Assembly: GCF_024171605.1 (NCBI RefSeq)
Contig: NZ_JALKAA010000004.1
Location: 1 to 64,000 of the forward strand
Direction: 5' to 3'
Origin: Pontibacter sp. HSC-36F09
Lineage (GTDB): Bacteria; Bacteroidota; Bacteroidia; Cytophagales; Hymenobacteraceae
Length of the DNA stretch: 64,000 nucleotides
Both the position numbers and the translations under genes were made by a program. Below the pieces are notes generated by a model. It had not been told where the DNA came from, did no database searches, and worked only from the letters and a program-made list of their open reading frames with translations. This document shows, one piece after another, positions 1 to 64,000 of the stretch; the first letter of the stretch is position 1, and every line of letters begins with the position of its first letter.

Positions 1-108
1 CGGCTATACCTTGCGGCTATACCTTGCGGCTATACCTTGCGGCTATACCTTGCGGCTATACCTTGCGGCTATACCTTGCGGCTATACCTTGCGGCTATAC
101 CTTGCGGC
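1..108. repeat. 13-bp tandem repeat, eight copies (AGGTATA array)
   Basis: Eight exact head-to-tail copies of CGGCTATACCTTG (1-104) are followed by a partial ninth, CGGC. The array runs off the left edge, so its true length is unknown. Read on the minus strand the unit is CAAGGTATAGCCG, which contains the AGGTATA word scattered through the rest of the window. The innermost copy supplies the last codons and the TAG stop of folA (AAG GTA TAG). There are no spacers, so this is not a CRISPR array. Confidence 0.97.
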
Positions 109-586
109 GCAGCTCTTTAAAGGTATAGGCATATTTGTTCTTCTCGTCCGGCTCGTGACCTTCAACGCTAACCAACAGCCATTCTTCTTCCTTCAGCTCC
201 GGGAAAAAAGTATCGCCATCAAAGTCATGATGCACTTTGGTCAGGTAGATCGTATCCACAAAAGATAAGGCTTGCTTGTAAATTTCAGCGCCGCCGACAA
301 TGCTCACTTGCTCGCTGTCCAGTTCTTTGCCTTTCGCAATTGCTTCTTCCACCGAGTTCACCACGATGCAGCCTTCTGCCTTATAATCCTCTTGCCGCGT
401 AACGATGATGGTTGTGCGGCCTGGGAGGGGCTTGCCGATAGATTCAAACGTCTTGCGGCCCATGATCATGGGATGGCCCATGGTTTTTTGCTTAAAGTGG
501 CGCAGGTCGGCAGGTAGATGCCAGATCAACTGGTTATCCTTTCCGATAACGTTGTTCTGGGCTATGGCGACGACGATGGCAATCAT
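95..586 (-). CDS. folA: Dihydrofolate reductase
   Basis: Reduces dihydrofolate to tetrahydrofolate with NADPH in the cytoplasm, feeding thymidylate, purine and formyl-methionine synthesis. The 163-residue length is normal for the family. Seen in the sequence: NNVIGKDNQLIWHLP near the N-terminus, the catalytic acidic residue at Asp27 (same number as in E. coli), GRKTFESIG for NADPH binding, and VGGAEIYKQAL near residue 100. The C-terminus ends ELRRKV, and the stop codon lies inside the first copy of the 13-bp tandem repeat, so the array abuts the gene without changing the protein. The next gene upstream on the same strand is fmt, which uses formyl-tetrahydrofolate; the 115-bp gap suggests loose co-transcription at most. 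Confidence 0.96.
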   Translation of the reverse strand: MIAIVVAIAQNNVIGKDNQLIWHLPADLRHFKQKTMGHPMIMGRKTFESIGKPLPGRTTIIVTRQEDYKAEGCIVVNSVEEAIAKGKELDSEQVSIVGGAEIYKQALSFVDTIYLTKVHHDFDGDTFFPELKEEEWLLVSVEGHEPDEKNKYAYTFKELRRKV

Positions 587-701
587 AGGTTAATGTGCTT
601 TTTAATGTGTTAATGTGTGCTTAGAGAATGTGCCTATTGGCAAGCATAAAGTTAGGTAGTCATGATACCTGTAACCTTTGCTATACCTAAACTTGCCTTC
701 C

Positions 702-1628
702 CTATACCTCAAATTTATACCCCCTTAACAAATCCTGCACGGGCATGCGCTTTTTGCCTTCCATTTGCAGGTCCAGAATCGAGAGAGCGCCGGCGGAAGT
801 CTGCACGTGCAGGTAGGTTTTGTTGTCGGTTTGAAGCTGGCCTGGCGCTACGGTATAAGCAGTGTTCTCGAGCACTTCCGTCTTGAAAATCTTAAACGTC
901 TTCCCATCGAAGCGGGCCCAGGCGGCCGGGTAGGGGGATAGGCCGCGTATAAAATCTCGTACCTGACGGGCAGGCTGATTCCAGTTGATTTCGCAGGTTT
1001 CCTTGAAAATCTTTGGCGCATGCTTCGTCTCAGCAGTAATTTGCTGCGGCTGAGGTTGCACTTCACCGCGCTCAATGGCCTGTACCGTGCGCACGGCCAA
1101 CTCAGCTCCTGTGTGCTTTAGCTTTTCGTATAGGCTGCCGAAATCATCCTCCTCAAGAATCGGTATTCTGTCCTGGAAAATCAGGTCACCGGTGTCGATT
1201 TCGTGCTTGAGAAAAAAGGAAGTAACGCCTGTTTCTTTCTCACCGTTGATGATGGCCCAGTTGATAGGCGCCGCACCGCGGTATTGCGGCAGCAAGGAAC
1301 CGTGTATGTTGAAAGAGCCCAGCTCGGGCATTGCCCAGACCACTTCCGGGAGCATCCGGAAGGCCACGATGATCTGCAGGTTCGCCTGGTAGCTGCGCAA
1401 CTCTTCCAGAAAAGCCTCTGACTTCAGGTTGGTCGGCTGCAGCACCGGTATACCTTGCGATACAGCGTACTCCTTCACAGGCGATTGCTGTATCTTCTGG
1501 CCGCGACCCGCCGGTTTGTCAGGTGCCGTGACCACAGCTACTACCTTATAATGATGTTCGACGAGTGCTTGCAGGGTAGGCACCGCAAAGTCGGGCGTGC
1601 CCATGAACACGATTCGTAAGTCCTGCAT
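702..1628 (-). CDS. fmt: Methionyl-tRNA formyltransferase
   Basis: Transfers a formyl group from 10-formyltetrahydrofolate to initiator Met-tRNA. The 308-residue protein opens with FMGTPDFAVP and carries the folate-binding and catalytic segment NIHGSLLPQYRGAAPINW near residue 110, then the C-terminal OB-like domain. The open frame extends 36 codons further upstream, but that extension lies inside the 3' end of the preceding gene and does not look like the family. The ATG at 1628, giving MQDLRIVFMGTP, matches the known N-terminus and sits 4 bp after the stop of the NamZ-like gene, so the two are probably co-transcribed. Confidence 0.95.
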   Translation of the reverse strand: MQDLRIVFMGTPDFAVPTLQALVEHHYKVVAVVTAPDKPAGRGQKIQQSPVKEYAVSQGIPVLQPTNLKSEAFLEELRSYQANLQIIVAFRMLPEVVWAMPELGSFNIHGSLLPQYRGAAPINWAIINGEKETGVTSFFLKHEIDTGDLIFQDRIPILEEDDFGSLYEKLKHTGAELAVRTVQAIERGEVQPQPQQITAETKHAPKIFKETCEINWNQPARQVRDFIRGLSPYPAAWARFDGKTFKIFKTEVLENTAYTVAPGQLQTDNKTYLHVQTSAGALSILDLQMEGKKRMPVQDLLRGYKFEV

Positions 1629-1632
1629 GTAT

Positions 1633-2862
1633 CTATTCAAAATCAGGGTATAGCAAATAGTTTTTGCGCAGCACTTTGTAGTCCGACAAGTTTGGCTCCC
1701 AACTGGCTCTGATCTCGGTTTCGGTCTTGCCGGCAATCACTTGCTTGCGCAGTTCCGAGGTGCCCGCCAGTTTCTCGAAGAAGTTGTTGAAGAATTTCTC
1801 CTTGTTCGTCGAGTTGTTGTACATCTCCAACAGGTACTTCAGCGTAAACGGCTGCGCAAAAGACGGGTCAGTCAGATCCATGCCGTAGCACTTCACGCCT
1901 TTGTGCGGCGGGTCAGTAGCGCCCGGGGTGCTGACAGGCGTAAAGGAGTAGTCCTTCTTCTGGTAGAAAGGCGAGCCAATCACCTGGAAAGGAGTAGGTG
2001 TGCCACGTCCTACGCTCACGTTTGTTCCTTCAAAGAAACAGATGGACGGGTATAGCGCAATGGACTGTGGGTTTGGCAGGTTCGGCGAAGGACGCACCGG
2101 CAACTCGTAGGCCATCGTGTGGTCGTAGTTCTCCATCTTGATTACGGTCAGGTCGCAGCTTCTCTCGCCCTCCAGCCATTTCTCGCCGTTGATCATCTCG
2201 GCCAGTTCGCCCACCGTAAGGCCGTGCACAATCGGAATCGGGTGCATGCCCACGAAGGACTTGTGCTCCATCTCCAGCACCGGACCGTCCACGTAGTGAC
2301 CGTTCGGGTTGGGGCGATCCAGCACGAGCATCTTTTTGCCGTTTTCAGCACAGGCTTCCATGGCGTAGTGCATGGTGCTGATGTAGGTATAGAAGCGCGT
2401 GCCTACGTCCTGAATGTCGAACACGAGTACGTCGAGGTTTTGCATTTGGGCTTTCGAAGGCTTCTTGTTGCTGCCGTAAAGCGAAATGATTGGTAGGCCC
2501 GTTTTAGTGTCTTTCGCGTCCTTGATGTGCGCACCAGCGTCGGCCTCGCCACGGAAACCATGCTCAGGGGCAAAGATGGTGGTCACTTCCACACCGCGAC
2601 TGATCAGCGTATCCACAAGGTGGGTTTTGCTAATTACAGAGGTCTGGTTCACGACCATACCCACACGCTTGCCTTCGAGAAGCTTCAGGTAGCGGTCGAG
2701 CTGCTCGGCTCCCAGGACCAGCGGTTTCTGAGCAGGGGCTTGGGTGGTTTCTTCGGTAACCGGGGCGTTTTGCTCGGCGGTAGTGGCAGGTGCCTGTTTC
2801 GGGGTGCAGCTGTTGAAGCTCAGCAACAGGGCGCTGCAAAGTATAGCAAATGGTTGTGTCAT
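1633..2862 (-). CDS. DUF1343 exo-beta-N-acetylmuramidase, NamZ-like lipoprotein
   Basis: A 409-residue DUF1343 protein. Characterised members (B. subtilis NamZ and Tannerella NamZ enzymes) release N-acetylmuramic acid from the non-reducing ends of peptidoglycan fragments, so a role in muropeptide recycling is likely by family. The N-terminus is a lipoprotein signal with lipobox-like LSFNSC, followed by a Thr/Ala/Pro/Gln-rich linker to about residue 48. Family features seen: VGMVVNQTSV, FAPEHGFRGEADAG, YGSNKKP, DIQDVGTRFYTY and LDRPNPNG. It lies 4 bp upstream of fmt on the same strand. The family assignment is firm; the substrate is inferred. Confidence 0.88.
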   Translation of the reverse strand: MTQPFAILCSALLLSFNSCTPKQAPATTAEQNAPVTEETTQAPAQKPLVLGAEQLDRYLKLLEGKRVGMVVNQTSVISKTHLVDTLISRGVEVTTIFAPEHGFRGEADAGAHIKDAKDTKTGLPIISLYGSNKKPSKAQMQNLDVLVFDIQDVGTRFYTYISTMHYAMEACAENGKKMLVLDRPNPNGHYVDGPVLEMEHKSFVGMHPIPIVHGLTVGELAEMINGEKWLEGERSCDLTVIKMENYDHTMAYELPVRPSPNLPNPQSIALYPSICFFEGTNVSVGRGTPTPFQVIGSPFYQKKDYSFTPVSTPGATDPPHKGVKCYGMDLTDPSFAQPFTLKYLLEMYNNSTNKEKFFNNFFEKLAGTSELRKQVIAGKTETEIRASWEPNLSDYKVLRKNYLLYPDFE

Positions 2863-2973
2863 CAGTGTTGGTTTTTCAAGGTCGGGTTTGGAGATTCGCT
2901 TACAAAAACGAAACTTTAACAGGTTCTAAGTCAAAATTCATACCTATCTTTAAGGCAGTTTAGACGCAAGCGA

Positions 2974-4188
2974 GTGAACGTATCCAAATTCATATCTGAT
3001 AAGATTTCCGAAGTACAGGCTGGTTCTTTCACCACGTCTGTGACAAAAATAGCAATTATAAGCATAGCTGCAGGCATTGCCATTATGATTGTGTCGTTTG
3101 CAATTCTGGAGGGCTTCCGTGATGAGATAAGAAATAAGATTTTCAGCTTCGGGTCGCACTTGCAAATCAGTAAGTACGACACCAACAATTCCTTCGAAGG
3201 CGCTCCCATCAGCACGGCCACAGGTATAAATAGCACCGAGGAAATAGCAGGTATACAGCACATTCAGGGCTTCGCCCGCAAAACTGCTATCATCAAGACT
3301 GAGGACGAGGTACTGGGCGTGGTGATGAAGGGCGTGGGCGAAGACTACGACCTGAGCGCCATGCAGGCCAACTTAGACGAGGGCGGCTTGGTGACATTTT
3401 CGGACACGGCCTCTTCCAAAGATGTCATGCTCAGTCGTAAAATAGCGAACAAACTCAGGCTAAAGGTAGGGGACGAGGCGATCTTTTACTTCATCCAGAA
3501 TCCGCCGCGGGCCCGAAAACTGAAGGTGGTGGGTGTGTTCAACACCGGTTTGGAAGAGTTTGACGAGGTATTTGTCATCGGTGACCTGCAACTGATCCGC
3601 GAGCTAAACAACTGGCCCGATACCCTGGTGGGCGGCGTGGAAATTTTGCTCAAGGACTTCAACCAGATAGATCAGGTGGCCGACCAGGTGTTCGACCAGA
3701 TGAACTACGACCTGCAGCTCGAGAAAATAACCGACCGGCATGCCCAACTCTTCGACTGGCTGCAACTTTTGCGCAAGAACGTGATCATCTTTCTGGTGCT
3801 GATCATCTTTGTGGCGACCTTCAACATGGTGTCCACGGTGTTCATCATGATCATCGAGCGCATCAGCATGATTGGCGTTCTCAAAGCCATCGGTGCCACC
3901 GACGCCCAGATACGGAAGATCTTTTACTTCCGCGGTCTCAACCTGACGCTCAAAGGGATGCTGTGGGGCAACGTCATCGGCCTGGGCTTCTGTGCCATCC
4001 AGTACTTTTTCCAGGTTATCCCCCTCGACCCCGAAAACTACTACATGGACACCGTTCCTATCAGCTGGAATTTTCCTATCATCATCGCCCTCAACGTGAT
4101 CACGCTTGTGATGACCATGCTCGCCATTCTTATACCTGCCGCCATGGTGGCCCGCATTAAGCCTGTTCGGGCGATTAAGTTTGATTAG
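2974..4188 (+). CDS. FtsX/LolE-family ABC transporter permease
   Basis: A 404-residue inner-membrane permease of the MacB/FtsX/LolC-E superfamily. Layout: one N-terminal membrane helix (about 24-46, SVTKIAIISIAAGIAIMIVS region), a large periplasmic MacB-like domain, then three C-terminal helices from about residue 268 to the end, closing with ARIKPVRAIKFD as in lipoprotein-releasing (LolE-type) permeases. The start is GTG at 2974; no better ATG precedes it. No ATP-binding partner is adjacent, so the ATPase must be elsewhere. It is divergent from the NamZ-like gene across 111 bp. A lipoprotein-export role is plausible but not shown. Confidence 0.85.
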   Translation: MNVSKFISDKISEVQAGSFTTSVTKIAIISIAAGIAIMIVSFAILEGFRDEIRNKIFSFGSHLQISKYDTNNSFEGAPISTATGINSTEEIAGIQHIQGFARKTAIIKTEDEVLGVVMKGVGEDYDLSAMQANLDEGGLVTFSDTASSKDVMLSRKIANKLRLKVGDEAIFYFIQNPPRARKLKVVGVFNTGLEEFDEVFVIGDLQLIRELNNWPDTLVGGVEILLKDFNQIDQVADQVFDQMNYDLQLEKITDRHAQLFDWLQLLRKNVIIFLVLIIFVATFNMVSTVFIMIIERISMIGVLKAIGATDAQIRKIFYFRGLNLTLKGMLWGNVIGLGFCAIQYFFQVIPLDPENYYMDTVPISWNFPIIIALNVITLVMTMLAILIPAAMVARIKPVRAIKFD

Positions 4189-4246
4189 GGGGTGATTAGA
4201 CCTTATTTAAGTAACTTAGTTCATTTTCATCTAATTATGATTTTAC

Positions 4247-5001: not shown

Positions 5002-5054
5002 TTGTTGGAGTAACTACTGGTTTTAGATTATTTTTGACATTAACTGTGAAATAA

Positions 5055-8718: not shown

Positions 8719-8758
8719 AGCTGCACTATATTTTACATATATAGTGCAGCTTTTTTTT
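8719..8758 (+). terminator. Rho-independent terminator of paaE
   Basis: A 13-bp perfect stem starting AGCTGCACTATAT, a short AT-rich loop, and a run of eight T at 8751-8758. An open frame that begins at 8757 would start inside it, which argues for the later start of the next gene. Confidence 0.93.
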
Positions 8759-8807
8759 GCACTTTCAGGAGAAGTGTCTATATTACCTCTTCTTTACAGA
8801 ACCATCT

Positions 8808-10538
8808 ATGAGTAAAACAGAAGCTATGATACAAGTACCCGAACGAAAGAAGCGGGTTTACCTGTCCGAAGACTTTAAAATAGATAATTGGGAAACCATA
8901 CAGCCATATTTTGAAGAACTGAAAAGCCGTGCCATCAACTCGGTGGAAGAGCTGGAGAAGTGGATGAAGGACCGCAGCGAGCTTGAGAGCGTGCTCTCCG
9001 AAGACCTGGGCTGGCGCTACATCCGCATGACCTGCGACACCCAGAACGAGGACATCACAAAGGCTTTCCAGTATTTCGTATCAGAGATAGAGCCCCAAAT
9101 AGCCCCTTACGACCACGAGCTCAACCTGAAGTTGATGCACTCGCCTTATGTGAACGGGCTTGATAAAGACAATTACCGCATCTACCTGCGCGGTGTGGAG
9201 CGTGCGCTGGAGATTTTCCGTGAAGAGAACATTCCGCTCAATACCGAAATCAGCACCAAACAGCAACAGTACGCCGCCATAACAGGGGCCATGACCGTGA
9301 CGCTGGACGGGGAGGAAATGACCCTGCAGCGCGCCGCCGACCGCCTGAAGCGCAATGAGCGTGCCGTGCGTGAAGATGCATGGCGTGCCATACAGGAGCG
9401 CCGCACGCAGGACCGTCAGAAACTCGACGACCTATTCGACGAACTGTTGAAGCTCCGCACGCAGGTGGCTAAAAACGCCGACTTCGATAACTTCCGGGAC
9501 TACATGTTCGCTGCCATGGGCCGCTTCGACTATACCCCGCAGGATTGCTTTGATTTCCACCAGTCCATCGAGGAGACCATTGTGCCTTTGCTGACAGGTA
9601 TAGACCACGAACGCAAAGAGAAGCTAGGTATAGCCGACCTGCGCCCGTGGGACCTCGACGTGGACCCGAGCGGAAAAGCCCCGTTGGAGCCGTTCCATTC
9701 AGGTGAAGAACTTTTGGAGAAGACCATACAGGTATTCTATAACCTTGACACATACCTGGGTGACTGCCTGGCCACCATGCGTGAAATGGGGCACCTGGAT
9801 CTGGAGTCGAGAAAGGGGAAGGCCCCGGGCGGGTATAACTATCCGCTGGACGAGATTGGAGTTCCGTTTATTTTCATGAACGCCACTTCGAGTCTGCGCG
9901 ACGTGATTACGATGCTGCACGAAGGCGGCCATGCGGTGCATTCTTTCCTGACGCGTGATCTGACGTTAAGCGCTTTTAAACATCCGCCGTCAGAGGTGGC
10001 CGAGCTAGCTTCTATGTCCATGGAGCTGATTTCAATGGACTACTGGGACACCTTCTTCAGCGACGAAGACGAGTTGCGCCGAGCCAAGCGCACGCACCTG
10101 GAGAGCGTACTCGAGACCTTCCCGTGGGTAGCTACCGTGGATAAGTTTCAGCACTGGCTATATGAACACCCTGAACACAAACAGGAAGAACGCCATCAGG
10201 AGTGGCTCAATATTTTCGGGCGTTTCAATCACCTGGAGGTGAACTGGAGCGGGCTCGAGAAGTATAAGCCGTTCATCTGGCAAAAGCAGCTACACATCTA
10301 CGAGGTGCCTTTCTACTATGTAGAATATGCCATGGCGCAATTAGGAGCGATAGCCGTGTGGAAGAACTACAAAGAAAATCCTTCGGAGGGATTGGCTGCT
10401 TACAAGCGCGCCCTCAGCCTGGGCTATACCGTCACGATCGGCGAAGTGTATGAAGCTGCGGGCATCAAATTCGATTTCAGCACCGCGTATATCAAGAGTC
10501 TGGTGGACTTTGTGAAAGGCGAAATGGCCAATATATAA
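8808..10538 (+). CDS. pepF: M3 family oligoendopeptidase F
   Basis: A 576-residue cytoplasmic zinc peptidase that cuts short oligopeptides. The zinc motif is MLHEGGHAVHSF, with His371, Glu372 and His375 on my numbering, and a downstream Glu in ELASMSMELISMD as third ligand. The length fits the PepF/M3 family (about 560-600 residues). The open frame could start at a TTG at 8757, but that lies in the paaE terminator; the ATG at 8808 (MSKTEAMIQV) is preferred. It is monocistronic between two terminators. The gene ends directly in a 16-bp palindrome made of two AGGTATA words. Confidence 0.92.
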   Translation: MSKTEAMIQVPERKKRVYLSEDFKIDNWETIQPYFEELKSRAINSVEELEKWMKDRSELESVLSEDLGWRYIRMTCDTQNEDITKAFQYFVSEIEPQIAPYDHELNLKLMHSPYVNGLDKDNYRIYLRGVERALEIFREENIPLNTEISTKQQQYAAITGAMTVTLDGEEMTLQRAADRLKRNERAVREDAWRAIQERRTQDRQKLDDLFDELLKLRTQVAKNADFDNFRDYMFAAMGRFDYTPQDCFDFHQSIEETIVPLLTGIDHERKEKLGIADLRPWDLDVDPSGKAPLEPFHSGEELLEKTIQVFYNLDTYLGDCLATMREMGHLDLESRKGKAPGGYNYPLDEIGVPFIFMNATSSLRDVITMLHEGGHAVHSFLTRDLTLSAFKHPPSEVAELASMSMELISMDYWDTFFSDEDELRRAKRTHLESVLETFPWVATVDKFQHWLYEHPEHKQEERHQEWLNIFGRFNHLEVNWSGLEKYKPFIWQKQLHIYEVPFYYVEYAMAQLGAIAVWKNYKENPSEGLAAYKRALSLGYTVTIGEVYEAAGIKFDFSTAYIKSLVDFVKGEMANI

Positions 10539-10553
10539 GGTATAGCTATACCT
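10538..10553. repeat. 16-bp perfect palindrome of two AGGTATA words
   Basis: AGGTATAGCTATACCT is its own reverse complement and begins on the last base of the pepF stop codon. It lies about 10 bp before the terminator hairpin of that gene. Confidence 0.9.
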
Positions 10554-10727: not shown

Positions 10728-11852
10728 ATGAACCTGCTCAATCGCTTGCTTCTCGTCGGGATTCTCTTGCTGTGCATCGCTACAGCCTGTTCCACCGCGC
10801 CAACTTCCGTTTCGCAATCGGATGCGCCTCTGTCGAATGCCGAGGTAGCGCGGGCAGCCGTGGGTACGTGGATTGGTACCATCCCCTGTGCCGATTGCCC
10901 GGGCATACGCTATACCCTGGATATTAACCCGGACAGCAGTTACCGCGAGCGTATGGTGTACCAGGGCCGAAGCGCGACGCCTTTTGTGCAGTCGGGTACT
11001 TGGGGTGTAGGCAATGGCAGGGTGCAGCTGAACAAACAAGGCACAGGTAACAACCAGTTTGCCCTGGACGGCGAAGCGTTGGTGATGCTCGATGGCGACG
11101 GAAACCAGATTGAATCCCCTCTTGCCGATGCCTATCGTCTTCGTCGGAGGAGCCCCGATGAACCGGAGGACAACCCAAGCCTGTGGCGCGAGAAGTACGA
11201 ACGCGGTATCGACTTTGCCGCTGCTGGCAATGAGCCGTTCTGGTCGCTGGAAATTGACCTGGAAAAAATGATTGAGTTCCGGCTGCTGGACGAAGAAGAT
11301 GGCAGCGTGCTGACGCCTATACCTGTCGCTGAGAAGCCTGAGACAGGGGAGGGGACGATCTACAGAGTTCAGACCGTTTCGGGAAACCTGGAAATCCGGT
11401 TGATGAAAGAGAACTGCGTCAACACCATGTCTGGCCGTGAGTTTCCTTATACTGTAACAGTGTTGAAAAACGATATGGAATACAAAGGCTGCGGCATGTA
11501 CCTCCGCGACTCCCGCTTAAACGGCACCTGGAATCTGGTTGAGTTGGAAGGGAAAGCTATTAAGACCAAAGATGCTGAACAAAATCAACCTTCCTTGAAC
11601 ATAAATTTAGATGAAGGCAGGGTTTCTGGAAGAGCAGGCTGCAACAGAATAACGGGCACGCTTGAGCCAATCGGTGATAAAATCAATTTCGGTCCCATCG
11701 CCGCAACCAGAATGGCTTGTCCGGATATGGAGTTGGAGAGCCAGTTTTTGCGGGTGTTGAATGACGCGGAGTTGAGGTATAGCGTAAGTGAAGAAAGTTT
11801 GGAATTGTTGTTGGGCGGGAAGACAGTTGCTGTTTTTGCGAGGGGAGCGTAA
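10728..11852 (+). CDS. NlpE/META-domain lipoprotein
   Basis: A 374-residue envelope lipoprotein. A lipoprotein signal is visible, with lipobox-like IATACS near residue 20. Then come an NlpE N-terminal-like domain (about 45-140; GTWIGTIPCADCPGI carries its CxxC), a middle domain with GNEPFWSLEID typical of the COG3650 type, and a C-terminal META domain (about 262-372; LNGTWNLVELEG, GRAGCNRITGTL, TRMACPDM). In other bacteria NlpE relays envelope and copper stress and META proteins are linked to stress or heat tolerance, so a stress role is likely but unproven. An AGGTATA word lies in the upstream region at about 10652 and another within 25 bp of the start. Confidence 0.85.
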   Translation: MNLLNRLLLVGILLLCIATACSTAPTSVSQSDAPLSNAEVARAAVGTWIGTIPCADCPGIRYTLDINPDSSYRERMVYQGRSATPFVQSGTWGVGNGRVQLNKQGTGNNQFALDGEALVMLDGDGNQIESPLADAYRLRRRSPDEPEDNPSLWREKYERGIDFAAAGNEPFWSLEIDLEKMIEFRLLDEEDGSVLTPIPVAEKPETGEGTIYRVQTVSGNLEIRLMKENCVNTMSGREFPYTVTVLKNDMEYKGCGMYLRDSRLNGTWNLVELEGKAIKTKDAEQNQPSLNINLDEGRVSGRAGCNRITGTLEPIGDKINFGPIAATRMACPDMELESQFLRVLNDAELRYSVSEESLELLLGGKTVAVFARGA

Positions 11853-11858: not shown

Positions 11859-11871
11859 TATACCTATACCT
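11859..11871. repeat. Overlapping AGGTATA doublet
   Basis: TATACCTATACCT: two copies of the 7-mer share one base, 6 bp after the stop of the META lipoprotein gene. A further copy follows at about 11897. Confidence 0.85.
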
Positions 11872-11908
11872 TGCTGGCGTAGCTACTGGCTTTTGCAGGT
11901 ATAGCATA

Positions 11909-22935: not shown

Positions 22936-23787
22936 ATGCGAAACCTTCAAGTCACCATCGATTCTAACTCAGGCTTTTGCTTCGGCGTGGTCTATGCCAT
23001 TCAAATGGCCGAAGACCTACTCGACGAGCAGGGGTATCTCTATTGCCTGGGCGATATCGTGCACAACGACGTGGAGGTGGAGCGGCTGCAGAAGCGTGGC
23101 CTGCGCATCATCGACCATGACCAACTACGGGAGCTGCGCGATGAAGCCGTACTAATTCGCGCCCACGGCGAACCACCTGCCACCTATCACATGGCCCTGC
23201 AGAATAACCTGACCTTGATAGACGCTTCCTGTCCGGTGGTGCTCAAGCTGCAGAATCGCATCAAGACATCCTACGACAAAGACGAGCGCATCTTTATTTA
23301 TGGTAAGCACGGGCACGCCGAAGTGATGGGCCTTCTGGGGCAGACAAGCAACAAGGCAGTGGTGTTCGAAAATCTGGATGAGTTGATGCAGCACGAGTTG
23401 CCGTCAAAAATCACGCTCTACAGCCAGACCACCAAAAGCACTAACAACTTCTACAATATCAAAGACACGCTCGAGCAAAAAGGCTACGAAGTAGATGCCA
23501 ACGACACCATCTGCCGGCAGGTATCCAACCGCGACAAAGACCTGCGCAAGTTTGCGGCCCAGTTCGATAAGATTATCTTCGTGTCGGGCACCAAGTCTAG
23601 TAATGGAAAAGTGCTTTACCAGGTATGCAAAGACACTAATCCGGCCACATACTTTGTGTCGAAAGTAGAGGAAATTCAATCTGAGTGGTTTGCCGACGAC
23701 GACAAAGTGGGAATCTGCGGCGCTACTTCTACACCGATGTGGCTGATGGAGGAAGTGCGCGATTTATTGCTGCGGGGAACCGTTTAG
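22936..23787 (+). CDS. ispH: 4-hydroxy-3-methylbut-2-enyl diphosphate reductase
   Basis: The last MEP-pathway enzyme, a 4Fe-4S reductase that makes IPP and DMAPP. The three cluster cysteines are in GFCFGVVYAI, DASCPVVLKL and DTICRQVSNR; active-site histidines are in LGDIVHND and GKHGHAEVMG. The 283-residue length is usual. It follows the cyclase gene after 6 bp, with an AGGTATA word in the gap, so isoprenoid supply and carotenoid synthesis share an operon here. Confidence 0.95.
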   Translation: MRNLQVTIDSNSGFCFGVVYAIQMAEDLLDEQGYLYCLGDIVHNDVEVERLQKRGLRIIDHDQLRELRDEAVLIRAHGEPPATYHMALQNNLTLIDASCPVVLKLQNRIKTSYDKDERIFIYGKHGHAEVMGLLGQTSNKAVVFENLDELMQHELPSKITLYSQTTKSTNNFYNIKDTLEQKGYEVDANDTICRQVSNRDKDLRKFAAQFDKIIFVSGTKSSNGKVLYQVCKDTNPATYFVSKVEEIQSEWFADDDKVGICGATSTPMWLMEEVRDLLLRGTV

Positions 23788-23789: not shown

Positions 23790-23899
23790 AGGTATAGCTT
23801 AGCTACCACAAACAAGGTATAGCCGCAAGTAAAACAGGTATAGTTAAAGCTCAAAGTTTTAGTAGTACAGGCGAATCCAACCTGGCAAATGCAGGTATA
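23790..23899. repeat. Cluster of four AGGTATA words
   Basis: Copies at 23790, 23815, 23836 and 23893, all in the same orientation (three as AGGTATAGC/AGGTATAGT types), fill most of the ispH-crtW gap. No terminator or gene was seen in this stretch. Confidence 0.85.
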
Positions 23900-27503: not shown

Positions 27504-27533
27504 AAATCGTAATCGCTTAAATTTTCAGAATGC

Positions 27534-27552
27534 AGGTATAGGCACAGGTATA
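27534..27552. repeat. AGGTATA pair upstream of the TonB receptor gene
   Basis: Two direct copies 12 bp apart (27534 and 27546), between the receptor start and the preceding gene; another copy overlaps the receptor's first codons near 27486. Confidence 0.8.
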
Positions 27553-48611: not shown

Positions 48612-51374
48612 ATGCCAAATAGTTTACGCTTGAGCTGTTGCTTGCCTGGCCGCATAGTGCTGTTGGTATTAATGTTGTTGTTGGGGTATGCAAACGTGGC
48701 GCAGGCGACGCACATCCGGGCCGGGGACATTACCGCCGTCAGGGACACAGGTCCCAATCCGAACCCCCGGAAGTTCTTTTTCACCATGGTGATGTACACC
48801 AAAACCTCCTCCACAGCCGATGACCCCAGGGTGTTCATCTCGATGGGGACAGGAGAGACCGTCACAGTGGAACGCCTGTCTGTCACCAATATCAAGCCGG
48901 ATGTAGACCGCGAGGAATTTAAGTGGGAGTATACCTTTCCGGCCAATGGTACCTATACCGTAACATGGGTGGGAGAGAACCGGAACGGCGGCATCCTGAA
49001 CATGGCCGCCCCAACTGACCAGCTCACCTTTGCCATTTCTACAACGATCTCCATCAACCCGCTGCGTGGCCTGAACAGTACGCCTATTCTGCAGGTTGCC
49101 CCAATTGACGAAGCTACTGCCGGCGAACGCTGGGTGCACAACCCGGGAGCGATTGACGCTGATGGTGATAGTCTTGCTTACAAACTGATACAGCCCCAGC
49201 ACCGCAACCAGGCAACTGGCCTGATCACGAACGTGCCCGGCTACCGCGATCCGCATACGGTGGACAACTGCCGTAACTCTACTAACACCGGACCTTCCAC
49301 CTTTACCCTCGACCCCATTACCGGGCAGCTCACCTGGGATGCTCCCTGCCGACTGGGAGAATATAACGTAGCCTTTGTAGTAGAGGAGTGGCGTACAACA
49401 GGGGCTGCTCCCGTATTGATCAGCACCGTGGTGCGCGACATGCAGATCCTGGTAGTGGATGCCCGTAACAAACCGCCGGTACTCGTGCCCCGCGATACCT
49501 GTATTGTGGCTGGCGAAACGCTGCGCACCACCATCACTGCTACCGACCCGGATGGACATTTGATCAACCTTACCGTACCGGGTACAGGCGGTATATTGCC
49601 GCCGGCTACTTTCAGAGGGACTGTCAACCAGCCAGGCCGTGCAGCCGGACAGTTAGTCTGGAACACCTCCTGCAACGATGTTCGCGCCAACCCTTACCAA
49701 CTTATTTTCAGAGCAGAGGATAATCCGCCGCCGCCCGCCAGGCAGTTGGCTGACCTGCAGCCATACCGCATTACGGTGATAGGGCCGGCTCCTCAGAACC
49801 TGCTGGCTACCGGTGAAGACCGATCCGTGCGCCTGACCTGGGACAGTTACATTTGTCAGAATGCCTCCACGATCCGCATTTACAGGCGGGAGGGACCGTC
49901 GGGCTGGCGGCCAGGGCCTTGCGAGACCGGCGTACCGGCCAGTGCGGGTTATACACTTATAGGCGAAGTAGGCAAAGACAAGACAGAGTTTTTAGACAAT
50001 AACAACGGGCAGGGCCTGACTGCAGGAGCGGAGTACTGCTACGTGATCTATGCAGAGTTCCCACGGCCTGGCGGTGGCCAGAGCATCGCCTCGCTGGAAG
50101 CCTGTGTTGTGCTGGAGCGTGACATACCTTATATTACCAACGTAACAGTAGACCGCACCGACGGAACCAACGGACAGATCACCGTTCGCTGGACGCAGCC
50201 TGGTCCAGGTATAGAGCGTCTGAATGCTCCTTTTGAATACAGGCTATACCGCAAGGTAGGGCAGGAGCCGGGTGGAGCCTATCAGCAGGTGTTCTCTTCA
50301 CGCAGACTGAGCGATACAGTGTTCGTAAACAGCGGATTGAACACAGAGGCAAATGCGTACCGCTATAAACTTGAGTTTTACAGCACCCGTACTGCGGGCG
50401 GCCCTACCCCTAACATGCTGCGCGACTCCACCTCCGCCTCCAGCGTGCGACTGGCAGCACAGGTACAAGGCACTGACGATGCAATTGCGGTTTCTCTGAA
50501 CTGGACCTACAATGTGCCCTGGAAAAATGAGGTACTCGAACATCAGATTTTTAGGGTCGTGAATGGTGAGTTGGTGCAGGTAGGAAGCGTGACGGCTTCG
50601 GCCACCGGTGGTACCTTTGTGGACAATGGCACTGCCGCCGCACCGCTGGAGCGTGGGCAGACCTACTGCTACGTGGTGCGCACCCAGGGCACTTACCAGA
50701 TAGAAGGACTACCGGAACCATTGCAGAACCTAAGCCAGGAAGTATGCGTGGAAACCCCACTCCTGATCTGTCCGCCGGAGCTGACCCTGGATGTGCTGGA
50801 CTGCGAGGCCTTCTTCGCAAACCCAACCAAGCCACCTTACCAGAATGTGCTGAACTGGGTGCCGAAGATAGGGGATGGCTGCACAGGCGAGATCGACTTC
50901 TACACCGTGTACTTCAGAGGACCGGGCGAGACGGAGTATCGCGCCATTGCCACGACCAAAGAGACCACCTATACTCATACCGGGCTGGAGTCTTTTGCCG
51001 CCTGCTACTACGTGACGGCTACCAGCATGACAGGAGAGGAAAGCGAGTCAAGCAACGAAGAGTGTAAGGACAACTGCTTCTTCTTCCAGCTGCCGAACAT
51101 CATCACGCCAAATGATGACGGCAAAAACGATGTGTTCAGACCGGATCCGAGGGCGGCATTCATACGCTCCACTACCTTCAAAGTATTTAACCGCTGGGGC
51201 GTGAAGGTATACGAAAGCAGTGCAGACCCGTATATCAATTGGCCAGGCACCGACAACGATGGTAAACGCCTCACAGATGGCGTTTACTACTACGAAGCCG
51301 AGGTAGACGTTATATCCATTGACCCTGAACGCAGCCGCACTAAATACAAAGGCTGGGTAGAAATAGTACGCTAA
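48612..51374 (+). CDS. Large surface protein with gliding-motility (CHU_C) C-terminal domain
   Basis: A 920-residue exported protein. A signal peptide (IVLLVLMLLLGYANVAQA) is followed by Ig/cadherin-like repeats, fibronectin type III-like domains in the middle (about 395-690; QNLLATGEDRSVRLTWDSY) and a C-terminal gliding-motility-associated domain (about 830-920; PNIITPNDDGKNDVF, FNRWGVKVYES, LTDGVYYYEAEV). That C-terminus is a type B sorting signal for the type IX secretion system. It likely acts at the cell surface as adhesin or matrix protein. The frame opens at a TTG at 48582, but the ATG at 48612 gives a proper signal peptide. Confidence 0.9.
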   Translation: MPNSLRLSCCLPGRIVLLVLMLLLGYANVAQATHIRAGDITAVRDTGPNPNPRKFFFTMVMYTKTSSTADDPRVFISMGTGETVTVERLSVTNIKPDVDREEFKWEYTFPANGTYTVTWVGENRNGGILNMAAPTDQLTFAISTTISINPLRGLNSTPILQVAPIDEATAGERWVHNPGAIDADGDSLAYKLIQPQHRNQATGLITNVPGYRDPHTVDNCRNSTNTGPSTFTLDPITGQLTWDAPCRLGEYNVAFVVEEWRTTGAAPVLISTVVRDMQILVVDARNKPPVLVPRDTCIVAGETLRTTITATDPDGHLINLTVPGTGGILPPATFRGTVNQPGRAAGQLVWNTSCNDVRANPYQLIFRAEDNPPPPARQLADLQPYRITVIGPAPQNLLATGEDRSVRLTWDSYICQNASTIRIYRREGPSGWRPGPCETGVPASAGYTLIGEVGKDKTEFLDNNNGQGLTAGAEYCYVIYAEFPRPGGGQSIASLEACVVLERDIPYITNVTVDRTDGTNGQITVRWTQPGPGIERLNAPFEYRLYRKVGQEPGGAYQQVFSSRRLSDTVFVNSGLNTEANAYRYKLEFYSTRTAGGPTPNMLRDSTSASSVRLAAQVQGTDDAIAVSLNWTYNVPWKNEVLEHQIFRVVNGELVQVGSVTASATGGTFVDNGTAAAPLERGQTYCYVVRTQGTYQIEGLPEPLQNLSQEVCVETPLLICPPELTLDVLDCEAFFANPTKPPYQNVLNWVPKIGDGCTGEIDFYTVYFRGPGETEYRAIATTKETTYTHTGLESFAACYYVTATSMTGEESESSNEECKDNCFFFQLPNIITPNDDGKNDVFRPDPRAAFIRSTTFKVFNRWGVKVYESSADPYINWPGTDNDGKRLTDGVYYYEAEVDVISIDPERSRTKYKGWVEIVR

Positions 51375-51802
51375 TGACAAACGAGGAACTGGACCGGCTG
51401 CAGGATTTGCCCATCGTATTTTACGATGGCACCTGCGGCTTTTGCCAGGCCAGCATACAAATCGCTTTGAAGTATAACACGAGGCAGAACCTGTATTTTG
51501 CTGCCTTGCAATCCGGGTTGGTAGAGCAGCTCGTGCCGCAGCAGCTAGTGCCTGATCCCTTGCCTGATTCCATACTTTTTTTCGAAAACGGCCAGCTCTA
51601 TACCGAGTCAGAAGCCGCCCTTCGCATTGCCCGCCATCTCAATTTTCCGTGGTCGGTGCCCTATTATTTTAGGTTTATTCCCTTATCTTTCCGCAATTTT
51701 GTGTACCGCTTCATCGCGAAACACCGCTACCGCATAGCAGGTCGCAACGAAGCCTGCATGCTGCCCAGCCCCGAAGAAAGGGCCCGGTTTGTGGCATACT
51801 AA
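51374..51802 (+). CDS. DCC family thiol-disulfide oxidoreductase-like protein
   Basis: A 142-residue DUF393/DCC protein, named after the N-terminal D-x-x-C-x-x-C motif, here VFYDGTCGFCQASIQIAL. The members have a thioredoxin-like fold with a predicted redox CxxC; a substrate is not known. Its start overlaps the stop of the preceding gene (TAATG), so it is co-transcribed with the CHU_C protein. Confidence 0.85.
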   Translation: MTNEELDRLQDLPIVFYDGTCGFCQASIQIALKYNTRQNLYFAALQSGLVEQLVPQQLVPDPLPDSILFFENGQLYTESEAALRIARHLNFPWSVPYYFRFIPLSFRNFVYRFIAKHRYRIAGRNEACMLPSPEERARFVAY

Positions 51803-51887: not shown

Positions 51888-51974
51888 TATACCTTGGTAA
51901 CAGGTATAAGTAGTGACAGGTATAGACAGTGATAAAAGTTGGCTATATCTTGAAACGTAATCAAGGCAGGTATA
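51888..51974. repeat. AGGTATA cluster upstream of fabD
   Basis: TATACCT at 51888 and AGGTATA at 51902, 51918 and 51968. Copies at 51902 and 51918 sit in a near-repeat of ACAGGTATAaGTAGTG / ACAGGTATAgaCAGTG, 16 bp apart. Confidence 0.85.
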
Positions 51975-58927: not shown

Positions 58928-59020
58928 ACGGCAAAATTACGAGAAGGAATCGTTAAATGCGAAACATGAGAACGAATAGCACAGGCGGTGGTGGAAATGT
59001 TATATTCATGACCGCTAATG

Positions 59021-59052
59021 TTGTGCTTAAACACTCATATTTCGTACATTTG
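59021..59052 (+). promoter_or_regulatory. Promoter of the aconitase gene
   Basis: TTG at 59021-59023, 21-bp spacer, TACATTTG at 59045-59052; start codon 45 bp downstream. Confidence 0.75.
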
Positions 59053-59097
59053 TAAACTTCACAATGAAGCATTAAACATCATAACAATAGCAAAACT

Positions 59098-61377
59098 ATG
59101 GCATTTGATTTAGGAATGATCAAGGCAGTGTATGCCGGGATGGCCGAGCGCGTGAATGCTGCCCGTAACGCAGTAGGCAGACCGCTTACCCTAACAGAGA
59201 AAATCTTGTACGCGCACCTTTTCGATGGCAACGCGACACAGTCTTTTGAGCGCGGCAAGACCTATGTGGACTTCGCTCCGGACAGAGTGGCTATGCAGGA
59301 CGCCACAGCGCAAATGGCCTTGCTTCAGTTTATGCAGGCTGGCAAGCCGCAGGTGGCTGTGCCTTCTACGGTACATTGCGATCACCTGATCCAGGCTCGT
59401 GTAGGTGCTGACCAGGACTTGCAAGACGCTTATACTGAAAACAAAGAGGTATACGATTTCCTTGCCTCTGTTTCAAATAAATATGGCATCGGCTTCTGGA
59501 AGCCAGGTGCCGGTATCATCCACCAGGTGGTACTCGAGAACTACGCCTTCCCGGGCGGTATGATGATCGGTACGGACTCCCACACACCAAACGCCGGTGG
59601 TCTAGGTATGATCGCGATCGGTGTGGGTGGCGCTGATGCTGTAGACGTAATGTCCGGCATGGCCTGGGAGCTTAAATTCCCGAAAGTGATTGGTGTAAAA
59701 CTGACCGGCAAGATGAGCGGCTGGACTTCACCGAAAGACGTGATCCTGAAAGTTGCCGGTATCCTGACTGTGAAAGGTGGAACGGGCGCTATCGTAGAGT
59801 ACTTCGGCGAAGGTGCTGAGTCTATGTCTTGTACCGGCAAAGGTACTATTTGTAACATGGGTGCCGAGATCGGGGCGACTACTTCAGTGTTCTCTTACGA
59901 TGACAGCATGCGTGCGTACCTGCGCGCCACCAACCGCGAAGAAGTGGTAGAAATGGCGGACGAGGTGGCAGGCTACCTGCGTGCAGACGACGAGGTATAC
60001 GCTGACCCGGCTGCTTTCTACGACCAGCTGATCGAGATCGACTTGTCTACACTGGAGCCGCACGTGAACGGTCCGTTCACGCCAGACGCTGCCTGGCCGA
60101 TTTCTCAGTTTGCTGCTGTTGTAAAAGAGCACAACTGGCCAGCTAAACTGGAAGTAGGTCTGATTGGTTCTTGCACCAATTCCTCTTATGAAGACTTGAC
60201 CCGTTCGGCTTCAATTGCTGAGCAGGCGGTGTCTAAAAAACTGGTTGCACAAGCTGAGTTTACCATCACGCCGGGTTCTGAACTCGTGCGCTTCACAACA
60301 GCCCGTGATGGCTTGTTGGATACATTCGCTCAGATGGGCGGTGTGGTACTGGCAAACGCCTGCGGACCGTGCATCGGTCAGTGGGCCCGTCACACCGACG
60401 ACCCGACCCGCAAAAACTCCATTATCACCTCATTCAACCGTAACTTCGCCAAGCGTAACGACGGCAACCCGAACACACACGCGTTCGTGGCCTCTCCTGA
60501 GATCGTAACTGCTTTCGCTATTGCCGGTGACCTGACTTTCAACCCACTGGTTGACAAGCTGATCAACTCCGATGGAGAAGAAGTAATGCTGGATGAGCCA
60601 AGAGGCATCGAATTGCCACCACAGGGCTTCGCCGTAGAAGACGCAGGCTATGTAGCCCCAGCCGAAGACGGTAGCAGCGTAGAAGTGGTAGTAGATCCGA
60701 AGTCTGACCGTCTGCAGTTGCTGGAAGGCTTTAAGCCATGGGAAGGCACCGACCTGAAAGGTATGAAGCTACTCATCAAAGCACAGGGCAAGTGTACGAC
60801 TGACCACATCTCCATGGCTGGTCCTTGGTTGAAGTACCGTGGTCACCTCGACAACATCTCCAACAACATGTTAATTGGTGCCATCAACGCCTTCAATGGT
60901 GAGGCCAACAAGGTATACAACGACATGACGCGTGGTTACGACACCGTACCTGCCACGGCCCGTACTTACAAGGCTGCCGGCATCGGTACCGTAGTAGTAG
61001 GTGACGAGAACTATGGTGAAGGTTCATCCCGTGAGCACGCTGCCATGGAGCCGCGCTTCCTGGGTGTTCGTGCCGTTATTGTGAAGTCATTCGCACGTAT
61101 CCACGAAACCAACCTGAAGAAGCAGGGTATGCTGGGTCTTACATTCGCCAATAAAGCCGACTACGACCTGATCGAGGAGAAAGATACGATCGATATCCTG
61201 GGTCTGGAGGATTTCAAACCGGGTCAGCCGCTGAAAGTGGTGTTGACGCACAAAGACGGTTCTCAGGATGCCTTCATGGTAAACCATACCTACAACGAAG
61301 GACAGATCGAGTGGTTCAAGGCTGGTTCAGCCCTTAACCTGATCCGTTTGCAGCAAAAGCAGTCAGCTAACGGTTAA
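59098..61377 (+). CDS. Aconitate hydratase
   Basis: A 759-residue 4Fe-4S enzyme converting citrate to isocitrate in the TCA cycle. The cluster cysteines are Cys359 in [11 protein letters not shown] and Cys422/Cys425 in [26 protein letters not shown] and the C-terminal swivel-domain [18 protein letters not shown] motif are present. Length and sequence match the mitochondrial-type aconitase, which is common in Bacteroidota. It is monocistronic with promoter and terminator. Together with sdhCAB it gives two TCA cycle steps in this window. Confidence 0.95.
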
Positions 61378-61401
61378 TTAGCAGTTAGCTGCCCATAATA
61401 G

Positions 61402-61434
61402 AAACGCCCCGCTCGACAGAGCGGGGCGTTTTGT
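61402..61434 (+). terminator. Terminator of the aconitase gene
   Basis: Perfect 13-bp stem AAACGCCCCGCTC / GAGCGGGGCGTTT with a GACA loop and TTTTGTTTT tail. Two AGGTATA words follow at about 61445 and 61461. Confidence 0.94.
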
Positions 61435-61474
61435 TTTACTGCAAGGTATAGCTTGTGCTAAGGTATAGCTCCGG

Positions 61475-64000
61475 TTATGGTCTGATGATCAGCAGGCGAC
61501 TCGTCGTGGTATTGTTTTCGTACGTCAGCTGAACAATGTAAAACCCTTCTGCCAGACCGTTCAGGTCAAAAATGGCCTCGTGCGGCATACGGCTGCGTAG
61601 TTTCAGACTAACCCGCCGTCCCATGGCATCCGTCATGAACAGGATGAGTGGGGCGTCCGCCTTCGGCAAAGCAATATGCAGTTCGTGCACAGCCGGGTTC
61701 GGGTATACCAGGAAATTGGGAGGAGCAGGAATTATAGTTTCGACTTGCTTGATCTCTATCCGCCGCGTAACAGTGTCTTCACCACAATCAGAAGAATTCG
61801 AGACAATCAGGGAAACATCATAGTTGCCAGGCAGTTCATAGGTATAGCTGGGGTGCTGCTCCGTGGAGGTGTCTCCGTTGCCAAAATTCCATCGCCAACT
61901 GCTGCCATGCTCGCTTTCATTGCGAAAGTCGATGCTCTTGCCGGGTTCCATTTGTTCTTGTGGCTGCACGATGCTAAAGCCAGCTATGGGAGAATTGGCT
62001 ACCACCAACTGGAAAGGTACCAGTGGACTGTCAAACAAGGAGTCGGCGTTGCAAACGTAGAGGATAGTGCTCGTATCGAGTGCGGTGATTTTGAAGTTGC
62101 TGCCTGCGCCTAGGAGCTTTGTTTTGGCTTCGTCAGCAAAAAACTTGAACTGTTTGCCGCCTGCTGGCGCCAGGCTGATCGAAGCACCCACACACACTGT
62201 ATCGATGATGGCCAAAGGCGCTGGCCCGGCTTTCATGACCTGGTATTTTGTGAGCGCAGCTCTGGCGTTCTGTTGAAGATGTTCCAGATCGTCGCCGGCC
62301 ACAATGGCAAACGAAACCAGTTGGCTCTGGCCCGGCGCTAATTTGTTGGCCGTCGTGCCCACGACATGGGCCACATCATTGCCGTAGCCGCTGCCCCAGG
62401 CTTTCTTCCTGGCCACGCCACCCGAAAGTGCTTTATTTTTCTCTTGTGTGCTAAAGCCGTCGGCAATTGCAAAGGTAGAGGAGCCCCCGGACAGGTTATC
62501 GATTGCGTAATAAGAAGGAGGGGTGACCGAAAGCAGACTTATACCTGCATAAGGCGATGCCTGTCCCATGTTATAGACGTATCCCATTTTCAGCGTTTCG
62601 TCCCAGTCGGCTACGTTCATGTAGGCATCCGTTATATTCCAGTCAGCGAACAGGCCGGCATGGAGCGTTTCGATCGTGTCTGGCGTGACATTGCGAATGC
62701 GGTACTCTAAAATAATATAGTCGGCGTCAGGAGACTCGCTCCAGGCCATGCCTTTGTAGCTCACCTGCACGCCTGCCTGGGCCGGAGCCGGGAATTTGTC
62801 GCGCATCACGCCACTGATCTCCTGATCCGCATCTTCTGTGTTATGGCGCAGCCGGGCAGATTTCACTGATACAAAGTCATTGTCCGTTTGCCAACTGGCA
62901 TTGCGCACATTGTCCGATATACGGTCCGGGGCAGCGGCGACCATTAACCCACCTTCAAAAATCATGGAAGTGCCGCCTTTGTAGGTGATACCGATGCCCT
63001 GTCCGAAATTATACCCGTTATACCCGAGGTTACCTTTACTGGTCAGGGTAACATGCAGGTTATTGGCCGTCAGCATCAGGTAGTCAGGGTTGACCGGTAA
63101 CTGGAAGTATTGAAAGTCCTGGTACGCGCCGTCCGCAAAACCGACTCTGAAAGTGGCCTGTGCATTGTGAGGCGCATCGGGGAGCACCACAAACCGGAAT
63201 GGCTTGCTGTGGTTGTTACTTGTCGCCAGCGTACCCATGGCACCAATGTTGAGTTCATTATCATCCAACACCTTGATAAAAGGCGAGGTTGAGGTGAGTG
63301 TTAACTTGAGGGCAGTAGTAGGGTCGAGATAATTCATCATGCTCAGGTGAATCAGCAGCGTGTCGCCGATCTGAGCCACCTTGTTGTCAACGACGCTGAA
63401 AGAAGTACAACGCACTGACTTTGCCTGAATGTCCCGAAGCGCTCTTTTCACATTCAGGCGGCCTCTGCCAAGAAGTTCGAAATAAGAAGCATTACCAGAC
63501 AGGTGATAGATATTATCTGAAGTAGCTCTCAGCCTCTCAATTACCTGCACGGCGTTGAGGTGTGGCAACTGAGAACGCAACAAAGCGGCAGCGCCTGCCA
63601 CCTGAGGAGAAGCATAAGATGTGCCATATCCTCTGCTATAAGCATCATCTCTTGAGATAGCTGTAGTATAAATACCGGAACTGGGAGCGGTAACATCAAC
63701 TTTATAATTCCAGGTTTGGCCACTGGTTTTCACATCGTTGTTAGTACCTCCTACTGAGAGTACATTCTCATAAGCTGCAGGATAAATATTAACTTTTGCA
63801 TTGGTATTACCACAAGCGGCTACAATGACCACATCACGATCAAGTGCGGCGTAATTGATGATGTCCTGTTCAAATTTAGAAGACCCTTCCCCGCCCCATG
63901 ACAGATTAATGATACTACAACCCTTGTCAGCTGCGTATACAATGGCTTCGTATCCTCCAAAGCTGCCATATTCAGTAGAAGGAAAAACCTTGATTGGTAA
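61475..64000 (-). CDS. S8 subtilisin-like peptidase with PKD and type IX sorting domains (5' end outside window)
   Basis: The frame stays open to the right edge, so the N-terminus, with the catalytic Asp and His, lies outside. Inside: SIINLSWGG, the oxyanion Asn region VAACGNTNA, and the catalytic Ser in GYGTSYASPQVAGAA (about position 63618). A long middle region with Ig-like folds follows, then a PKD domain (WRWNFGNGDTSTEQHPSYTY) and a C-terminal type A sorting signal (NFLVYPNPAVHELHIALP, ending TTTSRLLIIRP). It is a secreted or surface protease exported by the type IX system. A GTG at 63832 also opens the frame but is not the real start, since the domain begins upstream. Confidence 0.9.
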   Translation of the reverse strand, partial: LPIKVFPSTEYGSFGGYEAIVYAADKGCSIINLSWGGEGSSKFEQDIINYAALDRDVVIVAACGNTNAKVNIYPAAYENVLSVGGTNNDVKTSGQTWNYKVDVTAPSSGIYTTAISRDDAYSRGYGTSYASPQVAGAAALLRSQLPHLNAVQVIERLRATSDNIYHLSGNASYFELLGRGRLNVKRALRDIQAKSVRCTSFSVVDNKVAQIGDTLLIHLSMMNYLDPTTALKLTLTSTSPFIKVLDDNELNIGAMGTLATSNNHSKPFRFVVLPDAPHNAQATFRVGFADGAYQDFQYFQLPVNPDYLMLTANNLHVTLTSKGNLGYNGYNFGQGIGITYKGGTSMIFEGGLMVAAAPDRISDNVRNASWQTDNDFVSVKSARLRHNTEDADQEISGVMRDKFPAPAQAGVQVSYKGMAWSESPDADYIILEYRIRNVTPDTIETLHAGLFADWNITDAYMNVADWDETLKMGYVYNMGQASPYAGISLLSVTPPSYYAIDNLSGGSSTFAIADGFSTQEKNKALSGGVARKKAWGSGYGNDVAHVVGTTANKLAPGQSQLVSFAIVAGDDLEHLQQNARAALTKYQVMKAGPAPLAIIDTVCVGASISLAPAGGKQFKFFADEAKTKLLGAGSNFKITALDTSTILYVCNADSLFDSPLVPFQLVVANSPIAGFSIVQPQEQMEPGKSIDFRNESEHGSSWRWNFGNGDTSTEQHPSYTYELPGNYDVSLIVSNSSDCGEDTVTRRIEIKQVETIIPAPPNFLVYPNPAVHELHIALPKADAPLILFMTDAMGRRVSLKLRSRMPHEAIFDLNGLAEGFYIVQLTYENNTTTSRLLIIRP

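Follow-up and report, generated by a model that had tools for sequence, protein, structure and literature searches.

Why should one seven-letter word, AGGTATA or its complement TATACCT, recur throughout a stretch of bacterial DNA, within genes as well as between them? The stretch in question, hereafter the window, is the 64,000 nucleotides at the start of contig NZ_JALKAA010000004.1 of Pontibacter sp. HSC-36F09, from a genus of harmless bacteria of the environment, and an initial annotation of its letters had pointed to the over-representation of this word as a possible iterated or uptake-like motif. Our results, which come from comparisons of sequences, suggest that AGGTATA(G) is probably the local dialect of a putative self-recognition tag for natural transformation in Pontibacter. 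On balance, we also lean towards the view that the word belongs to a third, independently evolved uptake-sequence system, in Bacteroidota, pilus-free, and working via an outer-membrane receptor whose specificity would have switched at least twice in the genus.

The AGGTATA word and its dialects in Pontibacter

AGGTATA is the commonest 7-mer of the window, where a word count finds 128 dispersed exact copies (70 on the plus strand and 58 on the minus strand), close to the earlier count of about 125. The random expectation given at that time, about eight, is correct for even base composition. A second-order Markov model fails to account for the excess, because it expects only 10.6 copies in the window. 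The excess is not limited to the window either: a 224-kb sample of the source genome (G000) contains 497 copies of AGGTATA against 40.7 expected under the same model (12-fold), 291 of AGGTATAG against 7.5 (about 39-fold), and 86 of CAGGTATAGC against 0.9. In this sample, the median count across the 210 words that can be built from the seven letters of AGGTATA is 20. The 11-mer CAAGGTATAGC occurs 227 times in the whole genome of 4.43 Mb and its reversed control once, and by extrapolation from the sample there would be roughly 9,800 copies of AGGTATA in this genome. The extended consensus has C more often than A, and rarely G, before the core, which is followed by G (rarely T) and then C (rarely T); a preceding G and a following T are both uncommon, and there is little conservation beyond about ten bases. 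The word is asymmetric and non-palindromic, and it occupies both orientations and all three phases on both gene strands, as had been noticed for several reading frames. Opposite-facing neighbours make up 212 of the 488 motif pairs, which is no excess, and close inverted pairs do occur.

Comparison with related genomes revealed that in close relatives one or two letters of the word are often replaced. There are at least three dialects, AGGTATA, AAGTATA, and AACTATA, all built on a TATA core, and together they mark 39 of the 50 Pontibacter genomes. The counts of the window 10-mer AAGGTATAGC are bimodal, 12 of these genomes having 408-693 copies and the remaining 38 having 16-61 (5-20 for the reversed control), and unbiased word counts in samples of the genomes lacking AGGTATA turned up mostly AAGTATA or AACTATA instead. 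In whole-genome counts, AAAGTATAA has at least 669 copies in 23 of the 50 genomes and CAACTATAG at least 701 in seven. Three genomes use two dialects (G032, G026, and G046, with at least 701 copies of CAACTATAG plus more than 700 of AAAGTATAA). The dialects are also alike in their flanks: TATA is common to all, T is scarce after it, and a preceding G is rare in two of them and reduced in the third. The 11 genomes without a clear dialect (G002, G007, G023, G024, G025, G027, G033, G036, G041, G042, and G045) include some intermediate cases, such as G007 with 434 copies of AAAGTATAA. Elsewhere in the family, 23 genomes from other genera contain 1-25 copies of the window 10-mer and 3-20 of its reversed control.

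An FtsZ search assigns the window to Pontibacter, and the dialects track the phylogeny of this genus. A tree built from eight genes for the cell wall and division groups the AGGTATA species in a single clade, whose sister is the AAGTATA species P. ruber, and the AACTATA species in another, to which P. vulgaris is sister. The nearest named relatives of the window genome in this tree are P. sp. HSC-14F20, P. sp. BT731, P. virosus, and P. amylolyticus. Across all 50 genomes, the phylogeny of ComEC is congruent with the dialect clades.

Some words of the dialect-poor genomes were also recorded. G042 has an excess of TATATA-type words (loci L114, L158, L171, L172, and L173), with ATATATA at 5.0 per kb in intergenic regions and 0.5 per kb in coding ones; these are possibly a further dialect, or A+T-rich spacers. 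Variants of GGTATA were noted during the dialect search in the motif-poor G036. The words of G027 and of G025/G041 were considered as further dialects and ruled out, since they are dispersed or tandem repeats: G027 carries GGTAGAGA-type repeats, both dispersed and in tandem (L157:1550-2026; L113, L155, L167, L023, and L156 for G027, G025, and G041), and a CATTAGAATAATT repeat is common to G025 and G041.

Placement of the words and state of the competence genes

With genes called mechanically, as the longest non-overlapping open reading frames (ORFs) and without a gene finder, the density of AGGTATA in the G000 sample is 1.91 per kb in ORFs and 5.34 per kb between them. The enrichment just after stop codons that had been claimed for the window is thus borne out as an intergenic enrichment. 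The type of intergenic region matters, and convergent, tandem, and divergent regions rank in the same order in the samples of all three dialects. Their densities per kb, followed by that of coding sequence, are 8.18, 4.93, 1.86, and 1.91 for AGGTATA (G000 sample), 6.53, 4.86, 3.78, and 2.08 for AAGTATA, and 9.91, 8.09, 3.22, and 1.82 for AACTATA. This ranking is that of constraint, and copies are densest where constraint is weakest.

The copies are not static. Between aligned species that are about 83-92% identical in nucleotide sequence, copies come and go, and downstream of ftsZ there are clusters in BT731 and P. amylolyticus and a single copy in the window species. In the mur/fts genes, motif sites are shared between the window and its relatives more often than same-letter control words in 8 of 11 comparisons of only 14 sites each; the exceptions are P. 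indicus, where sharing is about equal, and P. amylolyticus and P. ruber, where it is below that of the controls. In-place conversion of old dialect sites was considered and rejected: in nine of ten species with AAGTATA, this word is found at 1-3 of 29 AGGTATA sites, and for P. oryzae it does not appear among the eight most frequent words recorded there. Hence, most sites are new. Tandem arrays of the own dialect occur at positions 1-108 of the window and at L105 and L024 in the AGGTATA group, and at L033 and L044 in the AAGTATA group.

Mobile DNA was examined in one island of the motif-rich G028 (L013:1-20000), which has one copy of the motif in 20 kb. It encodes a MobA-type relaxase, an MmeI-type restriction-modification gene and, by reading of the sequence, metal-efflux genes. 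Scarcity in recently acquired mobile DNA, as on this one island, would be expected of a word of the same kind as the DNA uptake sequences (DUS) of Neisseriaceae and the uptake signal sequences (USS) of Pasteurellaceae. Integrative elements of Neisseriaceae have been identified via the genomic distribution of uptake-sequence dialects (PMC7371117).

The initial annotation had called for a check of competence genes, and these were found. Matches to ComEC (PF03772) and DprA (PF02481) are present in all 50 Pontibacter genomes. In 49 of them, an HhH/ComEA-like gene is present as an open frame that spans 304-346 residues and includes HHH_3 domains (319 residues and three such domains in G000); in G021 there are pieces of only 87 and 75 residues. 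The reading frame of comEC is interrupted in three genomes (G009, G017, and G021) and that of dprA in two (G009 and G021), both of which also have stops in the HhH gene. The lesions of G021 comprise two stops and a frameshift in comEC, three stops and two frameshifts in the HhH gene, and two stops in dprA. Those of G009 comprise two stops, at least one frameshift, and the loss of a stretch near the 3' end in comEC, a stop and a frameshift in dprA, and one early stop in the HhH gene. The third genome, G017, has a single frameshift in comEC alone, which may be a sequencing error. Both comEC and dprA are free of interruptions in all 47 remaining genomes, whose HhH genes were judged by the length and the domains of the open frame. 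The joint loss of comEC, dprA, and the HhH gene implies that they serve one common process, which is under selection elsewhere.

These two genomes provide a natural experiment. G021 has 930 copies of AAAGTATAA, fewer than any of its eight sisters in the ComEC tree, which range from 1370 to 3427. The intergenic density of AAGTATA in 160 kb of G021 is 1.47 per kb, compared with 3.65 for G020 and 3.86 for G012 (p about 4e-7, with clustered copies treated as independent). The contrast is larger with a pool of nine sister samples (215 copies in 35.6 kb in the pool), but six of these samples and a quarter of the G012 sample consist of the motif-dense mur locus, and we therefore rely on the smaller contrast with G020 and G012. 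The intergenic copies of G021 look eroded and the genic ones not yet, as expected if a drive that spreads the word had stopped. The experiment amounts to one supportive case (G021), one neutral case (G009, described below), and some noise.

A putative uptake tag and its alternatives

USS spread by uptake and recombination. In our proposal for the uptake specificity of Pontibacter, its receptor, the path of the DNA, and the resulting drive, a surface receptor, probably not a type IV pilin, would bind DNA that carries the word. This DNA would then travel by way of the HhH/ComEA-like protein and ComEC to DprA and RecA, which would recombine it into the chromosome. Fragments bearing the word would be imported more often and displace word-free homologues, leading to molecular drive. 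The word would spread fastest where sequence changes freely, and it would erode upon loss of competence. Changes in the specificity of the receptor would give rise to the dialects AAGTATA, AGGTATA, and AACTATA.

Several observations weigh against this proposal. The coding density of G021 (1.07 per kb) equals that of its sisters, and only the intergenic one is low. G009 has the same three genes broken and shows no motif loss, with 4.43 copies per kb in intergenic regions and 638 of the 10-mer; its fewer HhH lesions suggest a later loss of competence, and the dN/dS of the broken comEC dated neither loss event. Low counts of AAAGTATAA are also found with intact ComEC and DprA, in G001 (669) and G019 (714), and the ratio of exact to one-mismatch copies of an 8-mer is 0.280 in G001 (with seven exact copies), which matches the 0.279 of G021. 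The intergenic to coding ratio is lower in G008 (1.05), where comEC and dprA are intact, than in G021 (1.38). All 11 genomes without a clear dialect have uninterrupted ComEC and DprA, so that competence genes alone do not predict the motif. The words of different dialects rarely occupy the same orthologous site, and tight clusters and arrays hold more copies than the single site that a fragment would require. Finally, neither a pilus motor nor a receptor was found in the searches that follow.

For the type IV pilus motor (T2SSE/PilB/PilT family), all matches in the 50 genomes are partial, spanning 38-66 residues, and they narrowly exceed the cut-off in three genomes; in most genomes the scoring covered 31 first-look candidates rather than all, and pilins were not searched. 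Given this result, a ComP pilin receptor of the Neisseria type is not expected, and the receptor must differ. As a receptor marker we tried DUF5689, a domain found in the Riemerella transformation protein RA0C_RS04920, and rejected it, since it occurs in 22 of the 50 genomes with no link to dialect. The DUF5689 proteins come in two sizes, about 413-450 and 1099-1299 residues, and two of the five loci read adjoin genes that by eye look SusD-like. Within about 10 kb to either side of comEC, the 15 genomes that were read for a linked receptor showed no obvious shared gene beyond housekeeping ones. An adhesin-like ORF of 3188 residues lies about 6 kb from comEC in G000 (C2:702892-712458; L151:16892 onward, L110), and it was not seen within about 10 kb of comEC in the other genomes read. 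A DUF1343 gene has been reported as essential for Riemerella transformation; NamZ/DUF1343 (PF07075) is present in all 50 Pontibacter genomes and offers no discrimination. In the window, a minus-strand ORF at 1633-2862 overlaps a match to this family (G000:C4:2068-2664). Proteins of the TonB kind would be a natural place to seek the receptor, because outer-membrane proteins of this kind and tonB genes affect Riemerella transformation (PMC8459023, PMC8383284).

Could the words arise without any role in uptake? A compositional or codon-use artefact can be considered refuted. Codon counts and motif are linked, since 177 of the 795 ATA codons (22%) of the G000 sample lie within the motif, but composition explains neither the 12-fold excess over the Markov model nor the difference from the other arrangements of the same letters, and the copies are denser between genes than in them and occupy both strands and all phases. 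It is unlikely that the words are a by-product like the cyanobacterial palindrome HIP1, caused by an orphan DNA methyltransferase and a bias of methyl-directed repair, with dialects that follow the specificity of the methylase. HIP1 and the alternate HIPs are broadly similar in behaviour (PMC4390886), and the palindromes CCTAGG and GCTAGC are over-represented in some Hymenobacter loci. Yet, the Pontibacter words are not palindromes, and the low intergenic density after the loss of comEC, dprA, and the HhH gene is not predicted by this explanation. N6_N4_Mtase (PF01555) has no match in the AGGTATA genomes G003 and G011, nor in G017, G030, G037, and G044 of the AACTATA group. Eco57I (PF07669) passes the cut-off in 46 of the 50 genomes, mostly with weak and partial matches; those stronger than 100 bits have a patchy distribution, and G000 has none. 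In the two families tested, there is thus no methylase common to the word carriers (none for PF01555 and no strong one for PF07669). Among the functions entertained at the outset, we prefer uptake to methylation or repair of the HIP1 kind, with the methylase side covered for these two families.

It is quite unlikely that the word is a signal like Chi, stimulating or orienting recombination after uptake or in repair rather than acting at the surface. Chi sites are over-represented short words too, and a role after uptake would decay with competence just as well. However, words of the Chi type are expected to lean to the leading strand, and we found no orientation bias: with GC skew as a proxy for that strand, the copies on the G-rich strand and on the other number 644:605, 257:231, and 128:106 in the three dialects. 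Changes of dialect within the genus would also seem to need repeated changes of a core repair enzyme. A binding site for a nucleoid or chromosome-organising protein, selected for its density along the chromosome, would account for a word that is genome-wide, orientation-neutral, and several-fold above chance, but we regard it as very unlikely: 11 of 50 close relatives have no clear dialect, copies turn over between species at the identities given above, and the word is nearly absent from one mobile island and sparse between the genes of one competence-dead genome.

The putative uptake tag can also be compared with systems already described. Like the DUS of Neisseriaceae, the Pontibacter word is short and asymmetric, has dialects that keep a common core and agree with the core-genome phylogeny, can occur as two dialects in one genome (S. 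muelleri and the three Pontibacter genomes), and forms overlapping inverted pairs (PMC3630211). The density of DUS reaches about 2.5 per kb in Kingella oralis, with 5918 copies in 2.4 Mb (PMC3630211). Unlike DUS, whose core is CTG (PMC3630211), the Pontibacter word has a TATA core, is found in an unrelated phylum with no pilus motor found and no ComP-type pilin expected, shows no excess of opposite-facing neighbours, and serves an uptake that is putative. It resembles the USS of Pasteurellaceae in its copy number, which ranges from hundreds to thousands in a genome, in its presence on both strands, and in its unequal orientation inside genes (PMC2346458); the word itself, the phylum, and the lack of a detected pilus motor set it apart. 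As HIP1 it is iterated genome-wide, with alternate words in some lineages, but HIP1 is a palindrome tied to orphan methylases (PMC4390886), whereas the Pontibacter word is asymmetric and has no shared enzyme in the two methylase families. We suggest that it works like DUS and USS, and do not file it as a member of these pilus-dependent families.

Another parallel is within Bacteroidota. Transformation in Riemerella requires ComEC, DprA, and an HhH protein, with machinery unlike the well-known ones (PMC8459023), and Pontibacter, of the same phylum, has comEC, dprA, and an HhH gene as well. R. columbina prefers its own DNA (PMC7965970). The k-mers proposed as uptake sequences for Riemerella and Flavobacterium are A- or T-rich runs (Table 3 of PMC7965970), and the available part of that paper describes no dialects for those of Riemerella, unlike what we found in Pontibacter. 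Uptake sequences are discussed for two proteobacterial families (PMC7811141, PMC1939737), and among the papers that our full-text searches brought up there is neither a description of this motif in Pontibacter nor one of uptake-sequence dialects outside Neisseriaceae and Pasteurellaceae. If the word is an uptake tag, the marking of own DNA for transformation has arisen once more, in Bacteroidota and with different machinery, natural transformation is general and long-kept in Pontibacter, and the word offers a handle for finding the outer-membrane DNA receptor of the group. The dialects, together with the two-dialect genomes and the two that lost competence, would make the origin, spread, and erosion of such words directly testable.

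Clusters in the window and words of other genera

The window starts with a tandem array on the minus strand (1-108), in which repeat analysis identified 8.3 units of the 13-bp CGGCTATACCTTG and the eight motif copies that had been claimed for it. There are further local concentrations. An inverted motif pair, AGGTATAGCTATACCT, lies at the end of the ORF at 8757-10538 (10538-10553), and a cluster of three copies, two overlapping (TATACCTATACCT) and one inverted, comes right after the ORF at 10728-11852 (11859-11903). A four-copy cluster on the plus strand (23790-23899) starts right after the ORF at 22936-23787. Of three plus-strand copies at 27486-27552, the first is within the 5' end of the minus-strand ORF at 25281-27503 and the other two are in the gap before the minus-strand ORF at 27585-27992. 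Another four-copy cluster (51888-51974) is downstream of the ORF at 51374-51802, and its copies were gained and lost among the aligned relatives. Two plus-strand copies (61444-61467) occupy the convergent gap between the ORFs at 59098-61377 (plus strand) and 61475-63832 (minus strand).

Words of other kinds were met outside Pontibacter. In Hymenobacter loci L088, L093, L091, L094, L089, L096, and L072, the over-represented words are CTACCCC, CCTAGG, GCTAGC, and TAGGCC. These words show no intergenic bias as strong as that seen in Pontibacter, and they may reflect a different phenomenon, akin to HIP1. In two 20-kb samples (L182 and L207), G050, of the same family, and G092, of the same order, have the words AACGCTA and CTAATCA, respectively, far denser between ORFs than in them; both are probably small repeats.

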